A stretch of 37,593 nucleotides of DNA from Paludibacteraceae bacterium (GTDB lineage Bacteria > Bacteroidota > Bacteroidia > Bacteroidales > Paludibacteraceae): the NCBI GenBank assembly GCA_018433525.1, contig JAHDRA010000035.1, positions 1 through 37,593 on the forward strand. Direction: 5' to 3'. The position numbers were made by a program, and so were the translations under genes. Below the pieces are notes generated by a model that did no database searches, was not told where the DNA came from, and saw nothing but the letters and a program-made list of their open reading frames with translations. Positions 21,381 through 33,771 of the stretch are shown piece after piece (within the stretch, counting starts at the first letter, position 1; every line of letters starts with the position of its first letter).

Positions 21381-21977
21381 ATGCGAGTTCCGGTATGTGC
21401 CGAGTTGATAGGAAACACTAGCGAATGGCAAGGGTGTTGCGAGTAACTGCAAATCTGAAAGAAGCCATCAGCAAAGCTGACGTTTTGACGAACAGAAATC
21501 TGATAGAAGGCTCTAATGAGAGGGTAACCGAGCAATGGATTGGGAACGCCCGAAATTCAACCGTAACTCAAGATGAGTAAATCAGGCAGAACGCAGTGAA
21601 AGTTTAATACCTTATCCCGAGAGGTCTTGTAGGGTACACCAACAGTGTAAGAAATGCAACGATGTATTTTAGGCCATATAAGAAGTCAGCAGAGGACATA
21701 GTATTCTGTTGAAAAACAGAAGAAGGTCTGAATCTTTTAATTTAAGGAGCAGTTAGTTCAAAATTTGTTTTATGGAGCTGCAGCAAGAAATAACGTACCA
21801 ATACGACCTGTTTGATTCAAAGGGTCAGGATGTTATTCGTTCTTTCGCAGGGAGTGAAGCCGTAAGCGGAGCTCAGGCGATAAAGGCGTTGCAAGTAAAA
21901 GAAGCAGGAGAACAGAAACGAGCCTTAACGCAGGATTTGATGGGAGGGTGGGGGAGTAATCCCCCTACCTACTCGAT
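21381..21977 (+). mobile_element. Group II intron with internal deletion
   Basis: The segment starts ATGCGAGTTCCGG (one change from the usual GTGCGA-type 5' end), continues with GTGCCGAGTTGATAGG and AAACACTAGCG, and later has GAAGTCAGCAGAGG and CATAGTA just ahead of an open frame, as in domain I-IV of bacterial group II introns. The end folds as a domain VI hairpin. CTC (21972-21974) pairs with GAG (21944-21946), ACC (21967-21969) with GGT (21947-21949), and CCCCC (21961-21965) with GGGGG (21950-21954). A bulged A at 21971 lies 6 bases from the probable 3' end (CGAT). No domain V (catalytic GNRA-capped 34-mer) is present, and nearly all of the reverse transcriptase is missing, so the copy should be unable to splice or move alone. 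Boundaries are approximate. Confidence 0.75.
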
Positions 21978-26326: not shown

Positions 26327-26906
26327 ATCCATAAAACTGTTGGATGGAAATTTTTATCGCCTCAAATTTCATCAGAAGAGAATGAATATTTGTTCGGAAT
26401 TATTTTATCCGAATGACGATTTTATTCATCTCCAATCGGCTTTAACCGATTCACATCCACCACAAAAGGGTTTATTCAAATGCAAAGTTACGTTTGAATC
26501 TAAAATTTTGAAGATAGAATATTTACCATACAAAAAAAAGGAAATTAATTCTCTTCGCATAGTACATACCCAGATAGAATCACATCCTTATAAAAAGGAA
26601 GATCGTACAGATTTTAACGCAGCATTCGATATGAGAGGAAATTATGATGACGTTTTGTTGGTGAAAAACGGCTTATTGACAGATACTTCTATTTGCAATA
26701 TTGCCCTTTTTGACGGTTTTTCTTGGCAAACGCCAACCAAACCATTGATTTATGGAGTTAATAGAGCTAATTTGTTAGAAGAAGGAAAGATTTTCGAAAA
26801 AGATATTAAACTTAGCGATTTGCAAAATTATTCTGCCATTAGGCTTTTTAATGCTTTGATCGAATTTGGAGAAATTGAATTGAATATCAGCAATATACAC
26901 TTTTAA
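26310..26906 (+). CDS. pabC: Class IV aminotransferase, probable aminodeoxychorismate lyase
   Basis: This is a 198-residue class IV PLP enzyme, short compared with the usual 270-300 residues but typical of a compact Bacteroidota form. Recognisable pieces are LLDGNFYRLKFHQKRM (substrate-side N-terminus), the lysine-containing HPYKKEDR (candidate Schiff-base Lys), and the cofactor-binding region LLTDTSICNIALFDGFSWQTP ending PLIYGVNRANLLEEGKI. Overlap with pabB in another frame implies coupled expression, and this context supports conversion of aminodeoxychorismate to 4-aminobenzoate plus pyruvate. A branched-chain or D-amino acid aminotransferase role is less likely but cannot be excluded. Confidence 0.82.
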   Translation: MYRFIESIKLLDGNFYRLKFHQKRMNICSELFYPNDDFIHLQSALTDSHPPQKGLFKCKVTFESKILKIEYLPYKKKEINSLRIVHTQIESHPYKKEDRTDFNAAFDMRGNYDDVLLVKNGLLTDTSICNIALFDGFSWQTPTKPLIYGVNRANLLEEGKIFEKDIKLSDLQNYSAIRLFNALIEFGEIELNISNIHF

Positions 26907-26984: not shown

Positions 26985-27014
26985 TTTGCATTTAGAAAAA
27001 TTGCAGTATCTTTG
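26985..27014 (+). promoter_or_regulatory. Promoter of the leu operon
   Basis: TTTG (26985-26988), an 18-bp spacer, and TATCTTTG (27007-27014), an exact TAnnTTTG -7 element. Predicted transcription starts near 27020, about 20 bases before the leader peptide ATG. Confidence 0.65.
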
Positions 27015-27041
27015 CGAAAAATTTACAAATTAAAACAAAAC

Positions 27042-27110
27042 ATGAAACTGAATTCTCTACATACTTTGCTAAGCAGCATTATTCTACTTTTGGCAAAAGA
27101 GCAGAAGTGA
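27042..27110 (+). CDS. leuL: leu operon leader peptide
   Basis: This 22-codon open frame reads MKLNSLHTLLSSIILLL then AKEQK and stops at TGA (27108-27110). Seven of 22 residues are Leu and two are Ile; the densest run (Ile-Ile-Leu-Leu-Leu) ends 5 codons before the stop. It lies directly after the operon promoter and before a terminator and leuA, the defining layout of an amino-acid attenuator. It probably has no function as a protein. Ribosome stalling at Leu codons when charged tRNA-Leu is scarce would leave 27105-27111 free to pair with the terminator's 5' side. Confidence 0.8.
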   Translation: MKLNSLHTLLSSIILLLAKEQK

Positions 27111-27180
27111 GTTTGGTATGTAGATATGATAACCGATTTTATTTGAAAAACCTTTCTCACTTAATGTAAGAAAGGTTTTT
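27087..27180 (+). promoter_or_regulatory. Leucine attenuator (alternative RNA structures)
   Basis: Three elements are visible. (1) A small hairpin CTTTT-GGC-AAAAG (27087-27099) over the last Leu codons, which may be the base of a pause structure. (2) AAGTGAG (27105-27111), spanning the leader stop codon. (3) CTCACTT (27156-27162), its exact complement, located at the end of the terminator's 5' arm and in its loop. Pairing of 2 with 3 excludes the full terminator. A ribosome at the stop codon would cover element 2 and allow termination; one stalled on upstream Leu codons would not. Confidence 0.7.
27146..27180 (+). terminator. Attenuator terminator before leuA
   Basis: Arms AAAAACCTTTCT (27146-27157) and AGAAAGGTTTTT (27169-27180) form a 12-bp stem with an 11-base loop. 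The 3' arm ends in a T-run, 62 bases before the leuA ATG. Confidence 0.85.
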
Positions 27181-27242
27181 TACTTTATTATAGTAATGAT
27201 AAAATTAACCAACTTTGAGTTACAATTCAAAAAACAAAAAAT

Positions 27243-28736
27243 ATGGACAGATTATTTATTTTTGACACGACTTTACGTGACGGCGAACAAGTTCCAGGTT
27301 GCCAACTCAATACTGTCGAAAAAATTGAAGTAGCAAAAGCGCTTGAAAATTTAGGAGTTGACGTTATAGAAGCGGGCTTTCCCGTTTCGAGTCCCGGCGA
27401 TTTCAATTCGGTCGTAGAAATTTCAAAAACTGTTACTTGGCCGGTTATTTGTGCCCTGACCCGCGCCGTAGAAAAAGACATTGAAGTGGCAGCAGAAGCA
27501 CTTCAATATGCCAAGAAGAAAAGAATTCACACCGGCATAGGAACTTCAGAATATCATATCCGTTACAAGTTCAATTCCAATCAGGAAGAAATTCTGGAAC
27601 GCTCGATAGCAGCAGTAAAATATGCAAAAAAATTTGTTGAGGACGTGGAATTTTATTGTGAAGATGCCGGCAGAACTGAAAATGAGTATCTTGCACGCGT
27701 AGTAGAAGCCGTAATCAAAGCCGGAGCTACTGTTGTCAATATTCCCGACACCACAGGATATTGCCTCCCTTGGGAATATGGTGAAAAAATCAAATATCTA
27801 ATGGAACATGTGGATGGTATTCACAAAGCCATAATTTCTACACATTGTCATAACGATTTGGGTATGGCAACTGCCAACACCATTTCAGGAATCATGAATG
27901 GAGCACGTCAAGCCGAAGTTACCATAAACGGTATCGGAGAACGTGCAGGAAACACAGCTTTGGAAGAAATTGCCATGATTTTGAAATGTCATAAAAAACT
28001 GAATATCGAAACACAAATCAATACCAAAAAGATTTATTCAACCAGCCGTCTGGTTTCAAATTTAATGAATATGCCCGTTCAGCCCAATAAAGCAGTAGTT
28101 GGTAGAAATGCTTTTGCTCATTCTTCGGGAATTCACCAAGACGGCGTATTGAAAAACAGGGAGAATTACGAAATTATGAATCCAGAAGACGTAGGTATTG
28201 ATCACAATTCAATAGTGTTGACAGCACGGAGCGGACGTGCCGCCTTGAAACACAGACTGAATACTTTGGGTGTGGAATTGGCAGATAAAAAACTGGATGC
28301 TGTTTATGAAGAATTTCTGAAGTTGGCCGACAAGAAAAAAGATATAAACGACGATGATTTGCTGATGCTTGCCGGTAAAGAAAGGACAGAGAAAGAACGT
28401 ATAAAACTCGACTATTTACAGGTAACTTCCGGTGTGGGTGTGAAACCGGTAGCAAGTATCGGACTCATTATCGGCAGTGAAAAATTTGAAGCCGCTTCAG
28501 CAGGAAATGGGCCGGTTGATGCAGCCATCAAGGCTTTGAAAAAAATTATCAACCGAGAAATGACATTGCAGGAATTTACCATTCAGGCCATCAATAAAGG
28601 AAGCGATGATGTGGGTAAAGTTCACATGCAGGTTGAGCACGAAAATGTGGTTTATTATGGATTTGGAGCCAACACCGATATTGTTGCTGCTTCCGTTGAA
28701 GCATATATCGACGCCATTAATAAATTTGTTGAATAA
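27243..28736 (+). CDS. leuA: 2-isopropylmalate synthase
   Basis: This 497-residue enzyme condenses 3-methyl-2-oxobutanoate with acetyl-CoA, the first step of leucine synthesis. The HMGL-type barrel begins [15 protein letters not shown] (metal-binding Asp8), continues [16 protein letters not shown], and has the metal histidines in [11 protein letters not shown], then GIGERAGN. The C-terminal regulatory LeuA-dimer domain (about 385-497) contains [15 protein letters not shown] and [17 protein letters not shown], suggesting feedback inhibition by leucine. Length is normal. It is the first structural gene behind the attenuator. Confidence 0.95.
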
Positions 28737-28895: not shown

Positions 28896-30296
28896 ATGAA
28901 TACATTATTTGATAAAATTTGGGATGCTCATGTGGTTTCCACGATTGAAAACGGGCCTACTATTTTGTATATCGACAGGCATTATGTTCACGAAGTTACA
29001 AGCCCACAGGCTTTTAATGGATTGAGAGCAAGAGGATTGAAAGTTTTTCGTCCGTTACAAACCACTTTGACTGCCGACCACAATATTCCTACTCTTCATC
29101 AGGATCAGCCGGTGAAAGACCCTGTTTCACGAAATCAGCTGGATACATTTGAGAAAAATGCCAGAGACTTTCAGCTACCCTTGTTTTTCCCTATGGGACA
29201 TGAAAAAAATGGTGTGGTTCATATTATTGGTCCTGAAAATGGTTTTACTCAGCCCGGAATGACCATAGTTTGCGGCGACAGCCATACTTCAACTCACGGC
29301 GCTTTTGGTGCCATCGCTTTTGGAATTGGAACCAGCGAAGTTGAAATGGTGTTGGCTACACAATGTATTTTGCAAACACGTCCCAAAACCATGCGTATCA
29401 CTTTTGACGGAAAATTGAATAAAGGAGTAACCGCAAAAGATTTGGCACTTTACATGATTTCAAAACTTTCGACAGGTGGAGCGACAGGATATTTTGTCGA
29501 ATATGCCGGCGAAGCTATTCGCAATATGAATATGGAAGAGCGAATGACCGTTTGCAACCTGAGTATTGAAATGGGAGCACGTGGAGGCATGATTGCACCC
29601 GACGAAACAACTTTTGCCTACTTGAAAAACCGCGAATTTGCTCCCAAAGGGGAAGAATGGAATAAAAAACTTGCTTACTGGAAAACTTTGTATTCTGACC
29701 AAGATGCTGTTTTCGACAAGGAATATACTTTCGACGCCTCCGAAATTTCTCCAATGATTACTTATGGAACCAATCCCGGTATGGGCATGGGTATTGATCA
29801 AACTATTCCAACTTTGGAACAGGTGGACGAAGCCGGGAGAATTTCTTTTGAAAAAGCATTGAACTATATGGGATTTCGTCCCGGTGAAAAATTACTCGGC
29901 AAACCAATTGACTACGTATTTTTAGGAAGCTGTACCAATGGACGAATTGAAGACTTCCGCACATTTGCACAATTTGTAAAAGGGAAAAAGAAAGCCGACA
30001 ATGTTGTAGCTTGGCTGGTACCCGGAAGCAGAAAAGTGGAAAAACAAATTCACGATGAGGGCTTGCATGAAATTCTAATGGAAGCAGGCTTTGAGTTACG
30101 TCAACCGGGATGTTCTGCCTGTTTGGCGATGAATGACGACAAGGTTCCGGCCGGAAAATATGCCGTATCTACTTCCAACCGAAACTTTGAAGGACGTCAG
30201 GGACCGGGCGCTCGAACTATCCTTGCCGGACCACTGGTGGCCGCTGCTGCTGCCGTTACGGGGAAAATTACCGATCCCAGAGAATTTTTATCTTAA
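28896..30296 (+). CDS. leuC: 3-isopropylmalate dehydratase large subunit
   Basis: This 466-residue aconitase-family subunit forms an isomerase with LeuD that converts 2- to 3-isopropylmalate. The [4Fe-4S] ligands are at family positions: Cys346 in LGSCTNGR, and Cys406 and Cys409 in GCSACLAMN. Other family segments are [24 protein letters not shown] and RGGMIAPDE. It follows leuA after 159 bases that hold no recognised terminator. The same subunit pair could also handle citramalate/methylmalate. Confidence 0.97.
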
Positions 30297-30386: not shown

Positions 30387-30977
30387 ATGGAAAAGTTTGT
30401 TAAACTGACATCAACTGTTGTTCCACTTCCTATCGAAAATGTGGATACAGATCAAATTATACCGGCAAGATTTCTAAAAGCGACCAACAAGGATGGTTTT
30501 GGAGATCATCTTTTTGCCGATTGGCGTTACAATAAGGACGGAAGTCCCAAAGCCGATTTTGTTCTCAACAATCCTACCTATAAAGGTTCTATTTTGGTAG
30601 CGGGAAAAAATTTCGGTTCAGGTTCAAGCCGCGAACATGCAGCATGGGCCATAGCCGGTTATGGATTTAAGGTAGTGGTTTCAAGTTTTTTTGCTGACAT
30701 TTTCAAAAATAACGCATTAAACAACGGCGTATTGCCGGTAGTTGTTACACCAGAATTTTTAAACGAAATATTTCAATCTGTCAGTGAAAATCCCAATATG
30801 ACCTTAACGGTTGATCTCGAAAATCAGACTATTACCAACAATGCAACCGGCAAATCCGAAAAATTCGATATCAATGTGTACAAAAAGGAATGTCTGATAA
30901 AAGGCCTTGACGATATAGACTATTTGCTTAGCAAAAAGGATTTGATTGAAGCATATGAAGCTTCCAGAACTTTTTAA
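30387..30977 (+). CDS. leuD: 3-isopropylmalate dehydratase small subunit
   Basis: This 196-residue swivel-domain subunit completes the isomerase with LeuC. Characteristic segments are [14 protein letters not shown] near the N-terminus, [17 protein letters not shown] (substrate-binding loop), and [20 protein letters not shown]. Length is standard. It starts 90 bases after leuC in the same transcript. Confidence 0.97.
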
Positions 30978-31040: not shown

Positions 31041-32582
31041 ATGGTAGAAATAATGGATACAACCCTGCGTGATGGCGAACAAACTTCAGGAGTTTCGTTC
31101 TCAGCTCAGGAAAAATTGAGTATTGCCAGAATGCTGTTGCAGGAAATGTGTGTAGATAGGATTGAAATTGCTTCTGCACGCGTTTCGGAAGGTGAATTTG
31201 ACACTGTCAAAAAAATATGTCAATGGGCACGAAATAATGGTTATATCGACAAGATTGAAGTTTTGGGGTTTGTTGATGGAAAAGATTCACTCAACTGGAT
31301 TCAATCGGCCGGCGGAAAAGTTGTCAATCTCCTTTCAAAAGGTTCGTTAAAGCATTGCACTTATCAGTTGAAAAAAACGCCCGAGCAACATGTTACCGAT
31401 ATTAAACAGATAATTGCCCATGCAACGGAAATGGGAATTTCTGTCAATCTTTATTTGGAAGACTGGTCGAATGGGATGAAAGATTCGGAAGATTATGTAT
31501 ATTTTCTGATGGATGCTCTGAAATCCGAAAACATTAAACGTTTCATGTTACCTGATACGTTGGGAGTGCTTAATCCTGAGGATACAAAAAACTTTTGCAA
31601 AAAAATGATTGAGCGTTATCCCAATTTACATTTCGACTTTCATGCACACAATGATTACGATTTGGCTGTTGCAAATGTTTTTGAAGCAGTAAAAGTCGGT
31701 GTAAAAGGCGTTCATACCACTGTCAACGGTTTGGGAGAAAGAGCCGGAAATGCTCCATTGACAAGTGTTTTGGCTGTACTTCACGATCATTTGAAAATAA
31801 AGACCAATTTACGTGAAGACAAAGCTTATGCGTTGAGTAAAATGGTTGAAACCTATTCCGGTATTCGTATTCCGCACAACAAGCCACTTATCGGCGAAAA
31901 TGTATTCACGCAGGTTGCCGGCGTTCATGCCGATGGAGACAACAAGAGAAATCTCTACTTTAACGATTTGCTTCCGGAAAGATTTGGTCGTGAAAGACAG
32001 TATGCTTTGGGGAAAACATCCGGCAAGGCAAATATTTTGAAAAATCTTCAGCAATTGGGCATTGACCTTGATGACAACATTTTGCGAAAAGTTACAGAAC
32101 GTGTTATTGAGTTGGGGGACAAAAAACAGCTCACCACTATGGAAGATCTTCCTTACATTGTATCTGATGTACTCAACGAACAGGAAGAACAATCCATTAA
32201 ACTGCTCAATTATTCGCTATCCATAACTTATGGATTACGCCCTGTTGCGACGGTAAAAATGGAAATAAACGGAGAAGTATATGAACAGACGGCTGCCGGC
32301 GATGGACAATACAATGCTGTTTCCAAAGCCATGTGGAAAATTTATAAAATTCTGAATAAACCAACACCCGAATTGCTTGATTATGAAGTGGTAATTCCAC
32401 CTGGTGGTCAAACAAACGCTATCGTTCAAACAATTATTACATGGAAATTCAATCAAGTTATTTTCAAAACCAGAGGATTGGATCGAGACCAGACCATTGC
32501 AGCCATCAAGGCTACCATGAAAATGCTGAATCTGATCGAAGGCGGTAAATTACGTTCAAATAAATATACAGATTTACCTTAA
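31041..32582 (+). CDS. Second 2-isopropylmalate synthase-family enzyme, possible citramalate synthase
   Basis: This 513-residue HMGL-type synthase differs clearly from the LeuA encoded 3.8 kb upstream. It has [18 protein letters not shown] at the start, then MCVDRIEIASARVSEGEFD where LeuA has an [15 protein letters not shown] segment. It keeps the metal histidines (DFHAHNDYDLA) and GLGERAGNAPL, and carries its own LeuA-dimer domain (SITYGLRPVATVKMEINGEVYE, TRGLDRDQTIAAIKATMKMLN). The altered substrate-side segment suggests a different 2-oxo acid. Citramalate synthase (pyruvate plus acetyl-CoA, leading to isoleucine) is the most economical guess, because LeuCD and LeuB encoded on either side could finish that route. 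A second isopropylmalate synthase or a homocitrate-type synthase are alternatives. Confidence 0.8.
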   Translation: MVEIMDTTLRDGEQTSGVSFSAQEKLSIARMLLQEMCVDRIEIASARVSEGEFDTVKKICQWARNNGYIDKIEVLGFVDGKDSLNWIQSAGGKVVNLLSKGSLKHCTYQLKKTPEQHVTDIKQIIAHATEMGISVNLYLEDWSNGMKDSEDYVYFLMDALKSENIKRFMLPDTLGVLNPEDTKNFCKKMIERYPNLHFDFHAHNDYDLAVANVFEAVKVGVKGVHTTVNGLGERAGNAPLTSVLAVLHDHLKIKTNLREDKAYALSKMVETYSGIRIPHNKPLIGENVFTQVAGVHADGDNKRNLYFNDLLPERFGRERQYALGKTSGKANILKNLQQLGIDLDDNILRKVTERVIELGDKKQLTTMEDLPYIVSDVLNEQEEQSIKLLNYSLSITYGLRPVATVKMEINGEVYEQTAAGDGQYNAVSKAMWKIYKILNKPTPELLDYEVVIPPGGQTNAIVQTIITWKFNQVIFKTRGLDRDQTIAAIKATMKMLNLIEGGKLRSNKYTDLP

Positions 32583-32691: not shown

Positions 32692-33771
32692 ATGGGAAAA
32701 AATATTAATATCGCCGTTTTGCCGGGTGATGGTATTGGTCCGGAAATTATCGATCAGGCATTGAAAGTAACAGAAGCTGTTTGTAACAAATTTCAACATG
32801 ACCTCACTTACGAATTTGGACTAGTTGGAGCTTGTGCCATTGATGAAGTTGGAGAACCATACCCCAAAGCAACACATGAGTTGTGTATGCAATCCGATGC
32901 TGTACTTTTTGGAGCCATAGGAAATCCGAAATACGATAATGATCCTTCTGCTAAAGTGCGTCCCGAGCAGGGTTTGCTTAAAATGAGAAAAGAACTGGGA
33001 TTGTATGCCAACATTCGGCCGGTAAATACTTTCCCTTCACTGGTTGAAAAATCTCCATTGCGAGCAGAATTGGTGGACGGAGCCGATTTTATTTGCATCC
33101 GCGAATTAACGGGAGGAATCTATTTTGGCCGTCCTCAAGGAAGAAGCGAAGATGGAAGTACGGCTTATGATACCTGTATTTACACACGGGAAGAAATTGA
33201 AAGAATTGTTCATTTGGCTTATCGCTTTGCTGCACAACGTCGCAAAAAAGTAACTATGGTTGATAAAGCCAATATTTTGGCTACTTCTCGACTTTGGAGA
33301 CAAATAACTCAGGAAATTTCGGCTCAATATCCGGTTGTGGAAACAGAATACATGTTTGTCGACAATGCGGCAATGCGGATTATACAGTCGCCAAAAAATT
33401 TCGATGTAGTGGTAACGGAAAATCTCTTTGGCGATATTCTTACCGACGAAGCTTCAGTGATTACCGGTTCGTTGGGAATGTTGCCATCTGCTTCCATTGG
33501 TGTTCATACTTCACTTTTTGAGCCAATTCATGGTTCCTATCCGCAAGCAGCGGGTAAAAATATAGCCAATCCAATGGCAGCCATCCTTTCGGCGGCTTTA
33601 ATGTTTGAATATGCTTTTGTGTTGAAAGAGGAAGGTGCTTTGATTCGCGAAGCCGTTTCGGCATGTATCGAAGCCGGCGTGGTAACCGAAGATATTGCCA
33701 ACGGTCAAAAAGCATACAAAACTACTGAGGTTGGACAATGGATAGTTAATTACATCGATAATAAAAAATAA
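32692..33771 (+). CDS. leuB: 3-isopropylmalate dehydrogenase
   Basis: This 359-residue NAD-dependent beta-decarboxylating dehydrogenase has the nucleotide/metal features [11 protein letters not shown], the substrate-binding arginine region [37 protein letters not shown], the catalytic lysine in [10 protein letters not shown], and the metal aspartates in [25 protein letters not shown]-type residues follow in [18 protein letters not shown]. It closes the leu operon, 109 bases after the second synthase and just ahead of a terminator. Confidence 0.97.

Follow-up and report, generated by a model that had tools for sequence, protein, structure and literature searches.

The window, a stretch of 37,593 nucleotides from a Paludibacteraceae genome of the phylum Bacteroidota (2.57 Mb in 132 contigs), carries a leu operon with the gene order leuA-leuC-leuD-cimA-like-leuB (Table 1), and the nearest named relatives of its leuA are found in assemblies titled Bacteroidales (98% identical) and Paludibacteraceae (91%). 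The gene between leuD and leuB is called only CimA-like because its score against NF042433, a Leptospira-type citramalate synthase model that covers nearly its full length, lies below the cut-off, yet is far above that of the next best model (333.9). Among 61 genomes searched, 41 had a leuA match, and in 32 of these a second LeuA-like gene shares the contig and strand of leuA and lies no more than 6 kb from it. Upstream of the operon, position 26906 marks the end of a class IV aminotransferase gene. Further away in the window, two Rfam models of group II intron domains D1-D4 match at 21437-21728 (RF02001, 103.3 bits, and RF01998, 61.8 bits).

The interval between the aminotransferase gene and leuA contains a pair of promoter-like boxes (of which TTTG is taken as a -33-like box by a consensus that we presume to apply), a short leader open reading frame (ORF) rich in Leu codons and an intrinsic terminator. 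An earlier, sequence-only reading of this DNA had seen a leucine attenuator here, and the promoter boxes, the 22-codon leader with seven Leu and two Ile codons, the two complementary 7-mers and the leuA ATG all lie where it had placed them. The hairpin that it described as a 12-bp terminator is likewise present, but is longer, folding as 14 bp, one mismatch and 2 bp, with 27144-27160 paired to 27166-27182. Two more AT-rich hairpins are predicted between the terminator and leuA, at 27183-27232.

Table 1. Features of the leu leader region and operon, with positions numbered from the first letter of the window.
Feature	Positions	Strand	Basis
TTTG, presumed -33-like box	26985-26988	+	sequence
TATCTTTG, TAnnTTTG-type -7 box	27007-27014	+	sequence; kept in relatives
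Leader ORF MKLNSLHTLLSSIILLLAKEQK, ATG at 27042, 22 codons and TGA (27108-27110)	27042-27110	+	sequence; kept in relatives
CTACATAC, region 1 within the leader codons	27057-27064	+	folding; pairs with 27116-27123
Regulatory cassette, here Ile-Ile-Leu-Leu-Leu	27078-27092	+	sequence; kept in relatives
AAGTGAG, antiterminator 5' strand, across the leader stop	27105-27111	+	complementary to 27156-27162
GGT, antiterminator extension	27115-27117	+	folding; paired to ACC (27150-27152) beyond a UUU/UUU loop
GTATGTAG, partner of region 1	27116-27123	+	folding; helix encloses the inner helix of antiterminator strand and Leu codons
Intrinsic terminator, stem and U run	27144-27182	+	folding, -16.7 kcal/mol alone
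CTCACTT, antiterminator 3' strand, in terminator 5' arm and loop	27156-27162	+	sequence
leuA, 2-isopropylmalate synthase	27243-28736	+	NCBIfam TIGR00973, 685.2 bits, cut-off 598.7
leuC	28896-30296	+	NCBIfam TIGR00170, above cut-off
leuD	30387-30977	+	NCBIfam TIGR00171, above cut-off
Citramalate-synthase-like (CimA-like) gene	31041-32582	+	NF042433, 672.8 bits, below cut-off of 950
leuB	32692-33771	+	NCBIfam TIGR00169, above cut-off

The complementarity of AAGTGAG to CTCACTT makes the antiterminator and the terminator mutually exclusive, a point on which the earlier reading is borne out by the sequence, by folding and by the pairing kept in relatives. Seen at a single locus, this complementarity is weak evidence, and it is conservation that settles the matter; a complementary run of at least seven bases arises in 9.4% of 20,000 shuffles of 27093-27125. 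The fold of 27010-27242 as a whole beats all 200 dinucleotide shuffles (z -3.53). A simple terminator scan of the window returned no terminator, the hairpin at 27144-27182 included. If the RNA is free from 27104 and its 3' end lies at 27162-27170, the minimum-energy structure is the antiterminator (-14.0 to -14.7 kcal/mol); if it is free only from 27122, the state expected with the ribosome on the stop codon, the terminator folds (-16.7 kcal/mol with the 3' end at 27185). Once the 3' end has reached 27175 or beyond, the terminator is preferred either way (at 27185, -23.3 kcal/mol for the free RNA versus -18.0 kcal/mol with the antiterminator forced), and given that the finished terminator is more stable, the switch must act kinetically, with the decision taken during RNA synthesis.

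In the proposed mechanism, for which the reach of a ribosome on RNA is assumed, a ribosome whose A site holds the last Leu codon (27090-27092) would extend to about 27104 and spare the antiterminator 5' strand, which could then pair with its partner at 27156-27162 before the 3' arm of the terminator emerges, giving read-through. A stall at the Ile codons, slightly upstream, would likely have the same outcome, and a ribosome that has passed beyond the Leu codons would cover 27105-27111 and allow the terminator to form. In the fold predicted without a ribosome, the leader RNA folds on itself, with region 1 and its partner forming an outer helix inside which the 7-mer is held by the Leu codons, so that termination would be the default. 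The layout is that of a leader-peptide attenuator: a short, codon-rich ORF lies between promoter and terminator, the terminator precedes the first gene, the antiterminator shares the 5' arm of the terminator and excludes it, and the codons are placed such that a stalled ribosome could free the antiterminator strand, a placement that is weaker in the homology-drawn set of other operons described below. We consider it very probable that the locus is a ribosome-sensing transcription attenuator, predicted to open the operon under a shortage of charged leucyl- or isoleucyl-tRNA. In the sequences compared, leader and terminator are both present, as are the two complementary strands; all of these are conserved, and the last Leu codon lies at a near-fixed distance from the antiterminator core.

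To follow the module among relatives, 110 leuA upstream regions were collected, which after removal of eight duplicates and one that was too short left 101 distinct regions. Leader and terminator occur together in 86 of them (83 found by motif and three by a hand-set motif), four have a partial module (L035, L041 and L106, which are cut by a contig end, and L108, which has a TTG start) and 11 have none (L055, L058, L069, L076, L080, L084, L087, L094, L099, L103 and L109), with L058 and L084 retaining a terminator-like hairpin in the absence of a leader. In L108, a TTG-started, Leu-rich frame can be seen by eye, and AAGCAGG/CCTGCTT forms a compensated pair that lies outside the alignment used here. 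In 82 of 85 leuA leaders, the 75 nt ahead of the ATG contain a TAnnTTTG box, at a median distance of 22 nt from the start codon, and only two of the 85 have a Shine-Dalgarno-like motif upstream of the ATG. According to the available text of a study of Flavobacterium psychrophilum, TAnnTTTG is the main -7 box in that organism (PMC9723704).

Counted back from the last Leu codon, the preceding codon also encodes Leu in 78 of 80 leuA leaders, variously as CTC, CTT, CTA, CTG or TTG, and Ile is found at position -2 in 64, at -3 in 60 and at -4 in 55 of the 80, giving a conserved cassette of Ile-Ile-Ile-Leu-Leu. Ile thus appears to belong to the cassette as much as Leu does, and Leu together with Ile is the likelier signal; since the Ile codons are conserved and a CimA-like gene lies in the operon, Ile is a probable second signal. 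The leucine attenuator of the earlier reading is upheld by the 86 regions, with Ile as a likely addition to its signal. Between the last base of the final Leu codon and the GTGAG core of the antiterminator there are 14 nt in 52 of the 80 leaders and 13-17 nt in 78, and both exceptions have an extra Leu codon beside the core. The leader stop, which among relatives sits before, within or after the antiterminator strand, has no such fixed place: relative to the first base of the core it lies at +1 nt, overlapping it, in 38 leaders, at -5 in 24, at -4 in nine and elsewhere in nine. The ends and lengths of the leuA leader peptides vary, while the spacing from codons to RNA element is nearly fixed, as would be expected if the position of the antiterminator were set by the leading edge of the stalled ribosome and not by the stop, which is what we infer. 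That a ribosome at the stop would mask the 7-mer, as had been suggested, is possible at this locus, but the conserved distance runs from the last Leu codon.

The sequence-only reading had also proposed that an alignment of leuA upstream regions should show conserved Leu codons and covarying pairing between 27105-27111 and 27156-27162. In a MAFFT alignment of the 80 leaders (A1), the Leu codons are conserved and the pairing is kept, but covariation within leuA is thin, the one clean change from U-A to C-G being a single event on the leuA protein tree. The antiterminator helix is paired in 90.9% of cells and the GGU extension, in which there are no double changes, in 86.5%; together they reach 89.6%, against 43.6-51.8% for slid partners. 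The alignment pair 103:167 is standard in all 80 leaders (UA 68, CG 10, UG 2), and 29 leaders are unpaired at 100:170 and 16 at 101:169. Compared with column shuffles, the antiterminator is no better on two of five measures (double-change pairs were equalled in 91 and further pair types in 135 of 500 shuffles), and tree-based sign tests on the leuA leaders, with too few independent events, gave no significant result on independent pairs. Covariation of the antiterminator within the leuA set alone is therefore best regarded as modest, and stronger support for the pairing comes from comparison between operons, where the sequences differ and the pairing persists. The terminator is paired in 88.5% of cells (slid registers, at most 72.9%), has changes on both sides at 10 of 13 pairs and exceeds the shuffles on all five measures. 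For the outer leader helix the figures are 75.4% of cells and changes on both sides at seven of eight pairs, and shifting the helix by 2 lowers the score only slightly because the motif repeats.

The same genome holds four leader modules, before leu, ilv, phe and trp genes. The ilvD leader MYRKNNFLGIVVLLLVHNQR (L113, C99:109246-109388) has Ile, Val and Leu codons and the strands AAGGTGAGGA and TTCTCACCTT, and the pheA leader MKSRFFTYFYFYFYFKR (L416, on contig C14) has Phe and Tyr codons and the strands GAGCAGGAT and ATCCTGCTC. The trp leader (L429, on contig C7) contains WWW and lies beneath a match to the Rfam family Bacteroid-trp (C7:295-427; 49.9 bits against a cut-off of 49); it precedes a tryptophan-synthase-beta-like frame, trpB as judged by eye, upstream of trpE, and its complement CTCACGA is located, again by eye, in the terminator's loop and 3' arm. 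No leader was found within 320 nt upstream of hisG, thrA or trpE in this genome; for trpE, the trp leader stands before an upstream gene.

A covariance model built from the 80 leuA leaders and applied at E ≤0.01 gave hits within the order in 119 of 295 genomes and across the phylum in 79 of 395, tallies that are not all true modules, as some hits cover only the terminator and the model also matches the palindromic terminator on the opposite strand. Inspection of 180 loci hit by the model, 10 of which had no downstream frame, left 170 in which the first downstream gene was ilvD-like (62), leuA (53), ilvE (11), thrA (6), trpE (5), metY (4), ACT-like (3), pheA (3), ilvB (2), or hisG, asd or cysH (1 each); names were given by NCBIfam on one representative each, and the ACT-like gene received no family. 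At the remaining 18 of the 170 loci the downstream frame is unrelated or unassigned, and these were set aside (e.g. L116-L119, L168, L169, L171, L256, L270, L286, L287 and the pair L269/L284); a misread leuA probably explains L245. Two hits were judged by eye, one with an Ala/Leu-rich leader before an aminotransferase-like gene (L248) and one without obvious sensing codons before a glutamate-synthase-like gene (L214). The codons of the leaders match their operons, with HHHHH at hisG, TWAWFWF and WWWW at trpE, MCMMMCCC at metY, and TTTT plus Ile at thrA. When terminator arms were exchanged between the model-found modules, the strand that follows the codons fitted its own arm better than foreign ones in 142 of 157 cases and, with swaps confined to the same class, in 42 of 50 leuA, 54 of 60 ilvD and 17 of 18 ilvE modules, with p-values that are overstated as the sequences are related. 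These tests use arm-swap scoring, as placing the antiterminator by the single best complementary run misplaces it in trp, ilvN-like and some ilvE leaders.

Several model hits have features of their own. Two leader modules stand in series before ilv-type genes at 18 of 151 loci (ilvD 7, ilvE 7, ACT-like 3, ilvB 1; L149, L150, L153, L154, L155, L157, L158, L159, L161, L164, L165, L190, L191, L195, L198, L211, L215 and L237). Leaders with Met/Cys runs precede O-acetylhomoserine sulfhydrylase genes (L264, L274, L276 and L285), and a CMCMM leader lies about 500 nt upstream of a cysH gene (L170). The leader MIINITIKKHTKMKRVLHGRL, found before an aspartate-semialdehyde dehydrogenase gene (L277), has codons for Ile, Thr, Lys and Met, the products of the branched pathway, and could be a multi-signal attenuator.

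Because the covariance model was trained on leu leaders, which biases the spacing seen in its hits, a second sample was drawn by protein homology, independently of the model, and comprised the best 30 loci each of hisG, trpE, thrA and pheA across the phylum. Leaders with the expected codons within a window of eight (at least three His or Trp, five Thr/Ile or five Phe/Tyr) were present at 17 of the hisG, 27 of the trpE, 11 of the thrA and 16 of the pheA loci. Eight-codon windows with at least four His are found in 50% of the hisG loci and in 0% of loci from other classes, and the corresponding figures for Trp are 27% and 0%; Phe/Tyr windows occur at 63% of pheA loci and 7-20% elsewhere, and Thr-only windows at 33% of thrA loci and 0-7% elsewhere, but Thr/Ile windows in this sample fail to separate thrA (47%) from hisG (43%) loci. 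A terminator is present for 62 of the 71 leaders with expected codons. Their own pairing score averages 18.6, versus 11.8 with arms from other classes, and 56% of the 62 exceed the 95th percentile of the swaps. In 44% of cases, versus 21% of swaps, the best run begins 8-14 nt downstream of the last sensing codon, so that the spacing rule holds less sharply beyond leu. Leaders of thr operons form a weak class and belong to the set less surely than those of ilv, trp, his, phe and met/cys operons: in the five of the 11 thrA leaders that possess a terminator the pairing never exceeds seven bases, and some of the 11 have Ile codons alone.

On balance, we lean towards the view that the Bacteroidota possess a phylum-wide, interchangeable set of ribosome-sensing attenuators built on one RNA plan, in which a TAnnTTTG promoter, a leader free of a Shine-Dalgarno sequence, a terminator, and an antiterminator strand placed one ribosome reach past the last sensing codon, regardless of the stop, would be combined with swappable codon cassettes (Leu/Ile, Ile/Val/Leu, Trp, His, Phe/Tyr, Met/Cys and perhaps Thr/Ile), sometimes with two modules in series at ilv.

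The hydrophobic character of leuA-type leader peptides (e.g. LHILLLGIIILL) would also suit a small functional membrane protein, which the leucines would serve, followed by a hairpin that is an ordinary terminator or processing site. We hold this to be quite unlikely, as the peptides vary in end and length while the codon-to-RNA spacing is nearly kept, the terminator covaries, and the leaders of other operons encode HHHH, WWWW, TTTTTT or FYFYFY on the same plan. Still less credible is that the hairpin ends a pabB/aminotransferase transcript coming from upstream, with the ORF arising by chance and the leuA promoter lying further downstream: a promoter-like -7 box stands between the aminotransferase gene and the leader, as one does before 82 of 85 leaders, and 86 of 101 regions keep the module, which outweighs both the gene end at 26906 and the appearance of a 7-mer in 9% of single-locus shuffles. 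Equally remote is control of the terminator by a leucine-binding protein or a tRNA-binding, T-box-like RNA in place of a translating ribosome, for although the antiterminator core is strongly conserved among leuA leaders, as a protein site could be, Rfam finds no T-box or riboswitch within the window, and the antiterminator sequence differs between operons yet keeps close to the matching codons (median 11 nt, interquartile range 9-13, in the model-found set, a spacing partly biased by the covariance model).

The ribosome-sensing attenuator favoured here is not matched by any Rfam model. None of the Rfam families reached its cut-off on the leader in the window, and the 13 matches obtained at a lax E ≤10 are all far under their cut-offs and were judged to be chance; Leu_leader (which we take to be RF00512) is absent from both, and neither the T-box models nor Bacteroid-trp (RF01692) match at the locus. 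Bacteroid-trp also gave nothing at cut-off on 20 loci, 13 of them trpE, and as it exceeds its cut-off in only nine of 118 genomes of the phylum, it covers just part of the trp leaders. Several of the leuA relatives look termite-associated, presumably, from the style of their isolate names. Termite-leu (RF01730) was considered as the same element and rejected, as none was over cut-off in 119 genomes of the order, which gave three weak matches below it, or at the loci of 15 relatives. This family is listed in Table 1 of PMC2864571, seen in part, and its name suggests leucine genes in termite-gut bacteria; the same table gives Bacteroid-trp, a family of the same phylum that differs from the leu leader in operon and codons, as probably cis-regulatory.

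The mechanism proposed for the leu operon is classical and its kind is already known in the phylum; the leu attenuator, the shared plan and the spacing rule were not found described for Bacteroidota in the available portions of the literature searched. Attenuation in bacteria is reportedly also the subject of work by Lopatovskaya and colleagues from 2010, which may cover the phylum. The classical attenuators are those of the trp, his, leu, ilv, thr and phe operons of enterobacteria. The modules described here resemble them in their runs of product codons, their terminator, an antiterminator that shares its 5' arm and a leader hairpin as the default, and differ in the A-rich start context, the TAnnTTTG box, the A/U-rich stem, the joint use of Ile and Leu codons, and an antiterminator that is spaced from the codons, with the stop before, in or after it. 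The earlier reading had described leader-peptide attenuation as best documented in Proteobacteria and Actinobacteria, and a 2010 screen likewise states, in the part available, that, to its authors' knowledge, only these two phyla had been shown to have leader peptides until the Firmicutes case it presents (PMC2965389). In the text available, a 2021 survey of the superphylum's his genes mentions attenuation for enterobacteria. Attenuation is nevertheless not unheard of in Bacteroidota: besides Bacteroid-trp, there are strong clues, with transcription data, for leader-peptide attenuation before amino-acid biosynthesis operons of F. psychrophilum (PMC9723704), and short ORFs in long 5' untranslated regions of Bacteroides thetaiotaomicron are reminiscent of leader peptides (PMC7366714). 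The available text of these two studies names no leu element, spacing rule or phylum-wide breadth.

Among the titles listed in the literature searched, none on transcription-translation coupling in Bacteroidetes was found. Leader-peptide attenuation needs immediate initiation on the leader and a ribosome that closely trails RNA polymerase. Bacteroidia ribosomes are reported, in the available part of PMC9976891, not to recognise Shine-Dalgarno sequences, and with such ribosomes a broad set of attenuators makes coupling in this phylum directly testable. The modules at leu, ilv, phe and trp would provide natural reporters for coupling within one genome, and the spacing from codons to antiterminator is a prediction in nucleotides that can be checked by toeprinting. 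If the phylum-wide set is true, ribosome loading free of Shine-Dalgarno sequences would have to be fast enough to match RNA polymerase.
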